Below, one piece after another: positions 28,228 through 31,053 of a stretch of 64,000 bases of DNA. Location of the stretch: positions 1,745,501 to 1,809,500 of the forward strand of contig CP054675.1 of assembly GCA_013348845.1 (NCBI GenBank), given 5' to 3'. The DNA is from Candidatus Tepidiaquacella proteinivora. GTDB lineage: Bacteria; Bacteroidota; Ignavibacteria; Tepidaquicellales; Tepidaquicellaceae. Numbering within the stretch: position 1 is the first letter of the stretch; each line of letters begins with the position of its first letter. The notes under the pieces are model-generated. The model did no database searches, was not told where the DNA came from, and was given only the letters and a program-made list of their open reading frames with translations. The position numbers and the translations under genes are program-made.

Positions 28228-28362
28228 ACTTTAAAAATTTTTCACATTAATTTGTTGAAATTATACCTAAATAAATAAATTTGTATTTGGTATTTATTGT
28301 TTTCTATTGAATAATGAAATAATTTGTAATAATTTTAATTAGCTCTTTGAAAATTCGTTTTA

Positions 28363-28503
28363 TGTATTGGGGTGCTGTCAACCCTTCTGTAAAAGAAGGT
28401 TCTTTCCTTGCTAAAGCATTTGTATCTTTTGTTAGCAATGGAAAGTAGGCTGAGAACATACCCATAGAACCTGATACGGGTAATACCGGCGTAGGAAATT
28501 ACA
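28363..28503 (+). promoter_or_regulatory. thiamine pyrophosphate (TPP) riboswitch, THI element
   Basis: The conserved THI-box elements appear in order: GGGGTGC at 28369, GGCTGAGA followed by ACCC after it, GAACCTGATACGGGTAATAC and CGGCGTAGGAAA. TGTA at 28363 pairs with TACA at 28500 to close P1. P3 is extended, with CTTTCC-TTGCTAA pairing with TTAGCAA-TGGAAAG, and a small extra CCTTCT/AGAAGG hairpin precedes it. It lies in the leader of a TonB-dependent receptor gene and is followed by a strong terminator, so TPP should repress transcription of that gene. Confidence 0.95.
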
Positions 28504-28516
28504 AAAACAATTTTTC

Positions 28517-28590
28517 AACGCTTAAATTTTTTCTCTTTTATGTTTTGATTCGATGTTATCAGGTTCGGAAAAAATTTAAGCGTTTTTTTT
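28517..28590 (+). terminator. riboswitch-controlled intrinsic terminator
   Basis: A perfect 17-bp stem is formed by 28517-28533 and 28568-28584 (core CGCTTAAATTTTTTC), with a 34-base loop and an eight-T run. The loop segment TATCAGGTTC at 28557-28566 is exactly complementary to GAACCTGATA at 28467-28476 in the aptamer, a likely antiterminator contact. The CDS starts 15 bases after the T-run. Confidence 0.9.
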
Positions 28591-28605
28591 TAATTAAAAG
28601 CAGAT

Positions 28606-31053
28606 ATGAAAACTAAAATTAAAAATCAATTTTTCACCTTTTTCAGTATTTACATTTTAACAATCTTGGTTTCATTGACTGGTTTTTTAAGAGCGCAGGA
28701 AGAAAAAACTGACACTCTGATTTATAAAACTGAAACCATTGAAGTCGAAGCATTGAGAGGAATTGAAGGAGTATCTCCAATTACTCTTCAAAATGTTACA
28801 AGAGAAAAAATTGAAAAAAAATACTGGATGCAGGATTTCCCGATGTTTTTATTTGGTAATACAAGTGTAAACGCGTATTCTGAATCCGGAGCTTCGGTTG
28901 GCTATTCATACTTGTCTATAAGAGGATTTGATCAAAGGAGAATTTCGATTTTAATAAATGGAATACCCCAAAATGATGCAGAAGACCATCAGGTATATTG
29001 GGTAGATTTATCCGATATAACTGCATCTATTGAAAACATACAAATACAAAGGGGAATTGGAACAGCGCTATATGGAGCATCAAGTATCGGAGGTGTATTA
29101 AATATACAGACAATAGATTATTTCAGGAGAAAGTTTATTAATATTTCCTCAGGATACGGTAGTTATAATTCTAAAAGATTTTCTTTTGAATATTCTTCCG
29201 GTACAATAAAAGATGGCTATGGATTTTATGCAAAATTTTCTAAAACAATGTCAGATGGATATAGAGATTTATCCTGGTCCAATCACTGGTCTTATTTTAT
29301 TAGTGCCGGAAAAGTTTTAGGTGGTACTACTGTTATAAAAGCCAATATCTATGGTGCTCCAATAAGAAATCACCTTGCATATTTAGGAGTTACGAGAGAA
29401 TATATAGATGGCTTGGTTTCTGGAGATAAGCGAAAAGACAGGAAAATAAACTTTTTAAATTATATTGATGAAACTGACAATTACTATCAACCACATTATG
29501 AACTTGTTATTAATACCCAGCCAATTAAAAATTTATTTATTTCAAATACAATATCATATATAAGAGGTGATGGATATTTTATTACAAGTTTCCCTGTGTC
29601 GTATGGGTATGATTTTGATTATTTCAGATTAGAACCATTTTATACTTTTGATTCAACTGCCTTTAACCCTTTATACTACAGAAGAAACCCAGATGGAAGT
29701 TTATTTTTTGATCCTCAAAGAGGGTATGAAATTATCCGTAGTGATATTGTTTCCAAACTTTATGTAAATAACGATGATGTTGGATGGTATCCCAAAATTC
29801 AATACAAACACAGTAAGGAAAAGGGAATATTAACCATTGGAGGAGAAATAAGACTGCACAAATCTGAGCATTATGGAGAAATAACTTTTGGAAATGCCTT
29901 ACCCCCAAACACACCTCCAAATTACAGATACTATTACTTTAATGGTAAGAAAAGAACTGTTTCAGCTTATCTGAATGAAGTATTTAATTTTACAGACAAG
30001 TTTGCCGTTATGGGTGGAATACAGTATGTAAATCATCAGTATAAATTTGAACCAGGTATTGGAAGGCAATATCGGTTTTCAGTTGATTATAGTTTCTTTA
30101 CCCCTCGTTTTGGAATAAATTATAACTTAAATAAAAACCTCAGAACCTTCTTTAACTTTTCAATTGCAAAGCGGGAACCCCGTCTGAAGGATATTTACGA
30201 TGGAGAAAACCCGTATGCTAATCCTAACTTTAGAAGAATTGATACAGTTAATAATATATACGATGACCCACTTGTAAAACCAGAAGAAATGCAAAACTAT
30301 GAATTTGGAATTGGGTATATTTCTTCGGAAAATCAGAAAATAAAAGCAAATTTAAATTTTTATTTGATGGACTTTAAGAACGAAATTGTAAGTAATGGAC
30401 AACTTGATATAGCAGGTCAACCAATCAATGGAAATGCAAGCAGGTCTATTCACAGAGGAATTGAGTTTGAATTTGAAATATTTCCATTTAAGTATTTTTC
30501 TTTTAACTCAGAATTTTTAAGAAGAATTTTACAACCTTTCTCAATTGCTGGAAATATTAATTTGTCCCAAAACTATTTTAAAGAATATAGAGAAATTTTA
30601 GGAGTGGACTCTCTCGGAAATATAATATATGGTAATGATTATTCTGATAATAAAATTCTACTTACTCCTGATGTAATCTCAAACGTTTCTTTAAATTATT
30701 ATGCTGATTTTGGGCTTGGTTTTTATATTTCTTTACAGTATGTAGGGAAACAATATTTAGATAATTCTGAGAATGAAAGGAAAAATCCTGCTATTAAAAA
30801 TTCTCCCGGTTATATTGATAAATTTATTAGTGATTATACAGTGGTAAATGCTGGATTATCTCTTGATTTCGTGAGATTGTTTGAGAATAATAATTTAGCA
30901 AAATTGTTCAAATCATTTGAATTAAGATTTAAAATAAATAACTTATTAGACAGACTTTATGAAACGACTGGAAGTGTAGATGCTTTTGGTGTCCCTTATT
31001 GGATACCAGCTGCTGAAAGAAATCTGTTTTTTGAAGTACAGGTTAAGTTTTAA
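28606..31053 (+). CDS. TonB-dependent outer-membrane receptor, probably for thiamine or a precursor
   Basis: The 815-residue protein has a signal peptide (about 1-31), a plug domain (about 45-165) with YLSIRGFDQRRISILINGIP and GIGTALYGASSIGGVLNI, then a 22-strand barrel ending in the aromatic terminal residue of FFEVQVKF. TonB receptors bring large or scarce ligands across the outer membrane using the proton motive force. The TPP riboswitch in the leader argues that the ligand is thiamine or a thiamine precursor; this is inference from regulation. No N-terminal carboxypeptidase-like domain or SusD partner is present. Confidence 0.93.
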   Translation: MKTKIKNQFFTFFSIYILTILVSLTGFLRAQEEKTDTLIYKTETIEVEALRGIEGVSPITLQNVTREKIEKKYWMQDFPMFLFGNTSVNAYSESGASVGYSYLSIRGFDQRRISILINGIPQNDAEDHQVYWVDLSDITASIENIQIQRGIGTALYGASSIGGVLNIQTIDYFRRKFINISSGYGSYNSKRFSFEYSSGTIKDGYGFYAKFSKTMSDGYRDLSWSNHWSYFISAGKVLGGTTVIKANIYGAPIRNHLAYLGVTREYIDGLVSGDKRKDRKINFLNYIDETDNYYQPHYELVINTQPIKNLFISNTISYIRGDGYFITSFPVSYGYDFDYFRLEPFYTFDSTAFNPLYYRRNPDGSLFFDPQRGYEIIRSDIVSKLYVNNDDVGWYPKIQYKHSKEKGILTIGGEIRLHKSEHYGEITFGNALPPNTPPNYRYYYFNGKKRTVSAYLNEVFNFTDKFAVMGGIQYVNHQYKFEPGIGRQYRFSVDYSFFTPRFGINYNLNKNLRTFFNFSIAKREPRLKDIYDGENPYANPNFRRIDTVNNIYDDPLVKPEEMQNYEFGIGYISSENQKIKANLNFYLMDFKNEIVSNGQLDIAGQPINGNASRSIHRGIEFEFEIFPFKYFSFNSEFLRRILQPFSIAGNINLSQNYFKEYREILGVDSLGNIIYGNDYSDNKILLTPDVISNVSLNYYADFGLGFYISLQYVGKQYLDNSENERKNPAIKNSPGYIDKFISDYTVVNAGLSLDFVRLFENNNLAKLFKSFELRFKINNLLDRLYETTGSVDAFGVPYWIPAAERNLFFEVQVKF

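Follow-up and report, generated by a model that had tools for sequence, protein, structure and literature searches.

How can the core of a riboswitch aptamer control a terminator when the complementarity between the two lies in the terminator loop and not in its stem? The question is raised by a locus of Candidatus Tepidiaquacella proteinivora (assembly GCA_013348845.1, contig CP054675.1), where a thiamin pyrophosphate (TPP) riboswitch, an intrinsic terminator and the gene of a TonB-dependent outer-membrane receptor follow each other. The window that we analysed is a stretch of 64,000 nt (contig positions 1,745,501 to 1,809,500); coordinates below are those of the window, and all its features named here lie on the forward strand. 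An earlier sequence-only reading had suggested that, without TPP, the aptamer pairs with the terminator loop and blocks folding as a transcriptional switch. Conservation among related leaders and predicted folds support this as the best reading: the leader is very probably a TPP-repressed transcription-attenuation (OFF) riboswitch of a thiamin TonB receptor, in which the TPP-free core captures the terminator loop.

A conserved complement between aptamer core and terminator loop

The three parts stand in series as had been described. An Rfam search matches the TPP (THI) aptamer RF00059 at 28358-28515 with 59.9 bits (gathering score 54.3) and covers all model positions (1-105), so the covariance search that had been put forward as a check confirms the class with the full model. 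The terminator is a perfect 17-bp stem, AACGCTTAAATTTTTTC (28517-28533) with GAAAAAATTTAAGCGTT (28568-28584), and nine T at 28583-28591 make the 3' arm and T run together span 28568-28591. It is located between the aptamer and the receptor gene (28606-31053), which starts 14 nt past the hairpin and T run.

Within this leader GAACCTGATA (28467-28476), which comprises the 5' strand of P4 and flanking core, and TATCAGGTTC (28557-28566), which lies in the terminator loop and abuts the 3' arm, are exact reverse complements over 10 nt, to the base as first noticed. The former belongs to the aptamer with TPP and is the predicted 5' strand of an antiterminator without it; the latter is the predicted 3' strand, as judged from sequence, alignment, folds and tree. 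When the loop is dinucleotide-shuffled, a complement of at least 10 nt arises in 0.41% of shuffles against the aptamer and in 0.11% against its 50-nt core; when the whole AT-rich terminator is shuffled, the figure is 3.1%. Given such odds (0.1-3%), the complementarity in one sequence alone is suggestive only, and it is its conservation across the family leaders, not these odds, that rules out a chance origin. The possibility that GGTTC mimics a tRNA T-arm was also considered and rejected by eye, as the downstream RANYCC partner is absent.

For comparison we used 29 genomes of the same taxonomic family (G000-G028). A single TPP match is found in 27 of these, and a 28th genome (G019) shows a receptor orthologue and the last part of the same leader (CGTAGG, TATCAGGTTCGG in the terminator loop and a T run), truncated by the end of the available sequence. 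The alignment holds 25 leaders, all before the receptor orthologue, whereas folding counts cover 26 family leaders. The relatives are mostly draft genomes, and their kinship inflates the counts except where the tree of receptor proteins (median identity 64%), on which substitutions were counted, is used.

In all 25 aligned leaders the terminator loop ends with GGTTC directly against the 3' arm. Based on the receptor tree, CAGGTTC shows 1.0 changes per column, and GGTTC within it none, compared to 6.0 in the preceding loop, 5.1 in the spacer and 2.4 and 2.7 in the two stem arms. The stem itself covaries: two-sided changes are seen in 11 of its 17 pairs, with 96.5% of cells paired. The leader has therefore been diverging long enough for its stem to change with compensation, while the loop element has stayed the same. 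Pairing between loop and core is invariant at positions 1-5, always kept at position 6 (U-A in 20 leaders, U-G in 5), present at position 7 in 21 and at position 8 in 15 leaders, and seen at positions 9-10 in a minority; all 10 Watson-Crick pairs occur in G000, G002 and G004 only. The expectation that related leaders keep the complementarity therefore stands for its part next to the 3' arm but not for its full length: as far as the alignment tells, the conserved antiterminator helix is one of 5-8 bp, not 10.

Folding, the proposed switch and its rivals

Energies were obtained with nested folding models at 37 C and without ligand. When TPP-free partial transcripts are folded at the point where the loop has just emerged, the lowest-energy structure contains the loop-core helix in 25 of 26 leaders, and this helix is worth 6.6 kcal/mol (median). 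Of 2600 trials with a permuted loop element, 280 gave an advantage at least as large as that of the real one. As the transcript grows, the probability of this helix is about 1 from exposure of the loop until the 3' arm has emerged by about 12 nt in most leaders examined, with weaker helices in G002 and G005. A conserved alternative fold that excludes the aptamer and precedes the terminator is thereby predicted in 25 of 26 leaders. In the finished transcript the terminator is preferred by a median of 7.0 kcal/mol (zero in G002 and G008). Once complete, the terminator is more stable than the alternative in 24 of 26 leaders, so the decision of the switch would be kinetic, which by analogy resembles other transcriptional riboswitches.

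The sequence-only reading had placed the antiterminator in the loop and not in the stem. This applies to the loop-core helix, which has no bases in common with the terminator stem. It is only half of the picture, however: a second helix, between the aptamer and the base of the 5' arm of the terminator, is predicted in 16 of 26 leaders, among them the present one. In the minimum fold of the present leader the 3' strand of P4 (GCGTAGGAAA, 28489-28498), folded as GCGU(A)GGAAA, pairs with UUUUC(A)ACGC (28512-28521), a segment that covers the 5'-arm base. According to these models the antiterminator is a composite of the loop helix plus, often, a stem-base helix.

The proposed switch would then work as follows. 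At low TPP the P4 5' strand GAACCUGA would remain available and capture UCAGGUUC of the terminator loop as this emerges from RNA polymerase, immediately ahead of the synthesis of the 3' arm; in many leaders the 3' strand of P4 would additionally pair at the base of the 5' arm of the terminator. Such a composite antiterminator would delay the terminator until the polymerase has passed. Bound TPP would lock P4 and leave the loop free, so that the terminator would form and the receptor would not be made.

A number of observations weigh against this proposal. No compensatory covariation of the loop-core helix was found among the 25 aligned leaders; its five invariant pairs leave no room for it, as GAACCTG of the aptamer never varies. 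In the clade with core GAACCTGC (CTGC clade) the partner of position 8 is lost and nothing compensating is gained. The energy advantage is weak in the closest relative G002 (0.7 kcal/mol) and in G005 (1.9 kcal/mol), and for five other leaders 10-37 out of 100 permuted loop elements do as well as the real one. Moreover, since the loop-core helix shares no bases with the stem, helix and stem could coexist as a pseudoknot, a situation beyond the judgement of nested folding.

The last point leads to a rival in which a complete terminator hairpin exists side by side with a loop-strand helix (kissing or pseudoknot) between loop element and core. Such a helix would not block the hairpin; it would act by keeping it off the RNA exit channel or by holding the aptamer in a state that does not bind. 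The lack of shared bases and the fact that the element always adjoins the 3' arm agree with it, as do several loops (G005, G014 and G023) in which 7 of just 9 nt are complementary; 3'-stacked kissing loops are known with such tight geometry. Yet the loops of 32-33 nt in G000 and G002 are far from a tight kissing loop, and the 16 TPP-free folds that occupy the 5'-arm base are incompatible with a full stem, which makes this rival improbable. Still less credit can be given to an ordinary TPP terminator whose loop complementarity is inherited but idle, with switching via P1 or only via the helix between GCGUAGGAAA and the terminator base. Although the first helix is the switching element in many riboswitches (PMC10907184), and although the CG bases at the terminator base are unchanged throughout the family on the receptor tree, an idle 7-mer is not expected to be so static beside neighbours that change six times as often, nor does idleness suit a helix that contributes the energy given above. 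Capture of the loop by the TPP-free core accordingly remains our preferred explanation.

Thiamin uptake and known TPP switches

The receptor (815 aa) carries the Plug and barrel domains (PF07715, PF00593) and is a predicted thiamin importer based on co-occurrence with the loss of ThiC: 28 of the 29 genomes of the family do not have this protein, and most of these bacteria appear unable to synthesize thiamin. The sole family genome with ThiC (G017) is without the riboswitch and without a receptor orthologue, a neat exchange of synthesis for uptake compared to the other members. A thiamin pyrophosphokinase is present in the window's genome, and no PnuC/PnuT-type transporter was found there. Together these findings fit thiamin scavenging via the receptor. 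For an analogous thiamin receptor of Bacteroides the role was tested genetically (PMC5613172).

A pattern scan (GAACCTG...CAGGTTC...T5, one genome per species) yielded 57 loci. TPP leaders of Bacilli are like the present one in that the aptamer GAACCUG is complementary to a CAGGUUC in the terminator region, but they carry it in the 5' arm of the terminator (30 of 57 loci, nearly all Bacilli), whereas the present leader has it in the loop, next to the 3' arm. An antiterminator that blocks the 5' branch of the terminator is the usual layout (PMC7237195, PMC2258182). Among the named loci, the loop layout is found mainly in Ignavibacteria, and also in one Chlorobi bacterium (L197) and the borderline Bacilli L160 and L203. 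Two leaders of Desulfovibrionales (L155 and L161) appear alike by eye: their terminator loop ends in CAGGTT, which the 3' arm CCGAAAAGGCG follows immediately. These thiS-type leaders differ in phylum and gene (L161 precedes a thiS-like reading frame), and their loop-edge layout is probably of independent origin. In Endomicrobium the element extends into the 3' arm. The thiC leaders of a sister family (L058-L071) carry an apical or upper-stem TTTTCCTGC-like segment complementary to the opposite P4 strand GTAGGAAAA, and may thus have an analogous antiterminator that uses this opposite strand. Two loci of Meiothermus (L165 and L187) show a CAGGTTC complementary to the TPP core just upstream of the terminator hairpin and not inside it.

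Among characterized systems, the thiC TPP riboswitch of Neisseria meningitidis is likewise a transcriptional OFF switch that trades an antiterminator for a Rho-independent terminator, though its target is thiC and not a TonB receptor (PMC7237195). OMthi of Bacteroides thetaiotaomicron (BT2390) matches in the other respect, as a TPP riboswitch precedes a TonB-dependent thiamin receptor; compared to that leader, a terminator and an antiterminator are visible in the sequence here (PMC5613172). For Bacteroidetes TPP riboswitches the same 2017 study stated as uncertain whether they act at the level of transcription or translation (PMC5613172), and the present locus offers a concrete transcriptional mechanism for a Bacteroidota-related lineage.

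Judged from these comparisons, the leader belongs to a familiar type of switch, and what is specific to the clade is its expression platform: the switch strand is common and the place of its partner varies. Switching would be done by the P4 strands, whose partner sits in the 5' arm in Bacilli, at the loop edge in this family and Desulfovibrionales, and in the upper stem in the thiC leaders of the sister family. Expression platforms thus appear to shift around a switch strand that itself stays fixed.

The boxA-like element and other parts of the leader

The least expected part of the leader is a boxA-like element, AGCTCTTTGAAAA (28341-28353), whose place and orientation are kept in 23 of 26 family leaders. 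There NG(T/C)TCT(T/C)T is found 20-41 nt upstream of GGGGTGC, near the probable transcript start; control counts are 2 in 104 windows further upstream and 0 in 26 on the reverse strand. GTTCTTT occurs once in the 16S rRNA leader of each of the four relatives with a 16S gene found (G010, G013, G016 and G029), which makes it the likely boxA of this lineage. A search of the window's own genome for a 16S rRNA gene found none, even though this genome is one contig and 98.7% complete; the gene may be masked. Of 61 leaders of TonB receptors 29 have the boxA-like element, and no leader of any other gene group does, the thiC (17), thiD-like (5) and tenA-like (3) leaders included; the comparison is confounded by kinship and uses gene names obtained from reading translations. 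Its role as a general promoter mark was considered and rejected: AGYTCTTT is enriched in the window (22 sites against 8.9 expected), but most sites are intragenic or do not lead a gene.

Going by sequence, we tentatively raise the option that an rRNA-type boxA is coupled here to a metabolite-sensing terminator. Nus factors, loaded where the transcript begins, might tune the speed of the polymerase or its sensitivity to the terminator, and might in this way set the TPP-dependent decision of loop capture; we regard this as rather doubtful. A literature search for boxA, riboswitch and NusB returned mostly reviews, by title, and none that appears to describe such coupling. The element raises the question of Nus factors acting at a riboswitch.

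Further upstream, promoter-like elements of Bacteroidota type can be discerned at 28307-28337: TTG (28307-28309) and TAATTTTA (28330-28337), which equals TANNTTTG with one mismatch. The pair TANNTTTG/TTG is what we take to be the consensus of the Bacteroidota-type promoter.

As for the aptamer, it contains the conserved motifs of the TPP class (CUGAGA, ACC...GAACCUGAU, P4/P5 and GCGUAGG). It is the sole Rfam match within the window and the only TPP match in the whole 2.4-Mb genome. A genome-wide scan gave the same aptamer 45.5 bits over a shorter span, due to its long P3 arm. This expanded P3/P3a arm (28376-28449) is present as a single copy in the genome, which rules out that the insert belongs to a repeat family. 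A different situation is found in the relative G016, where the P3 arm of the TPP riboswitch (G016:C2:357336-357357, in L047) holds the palindromic repeat GAGACGCAANATTTTGCGTCTC. The G016 genome has 17 forward-strand copies of this repeat, and G000 and G002 have none; from its sequence and copies it is a mobile-looking repeat inside a riboswitch stem.
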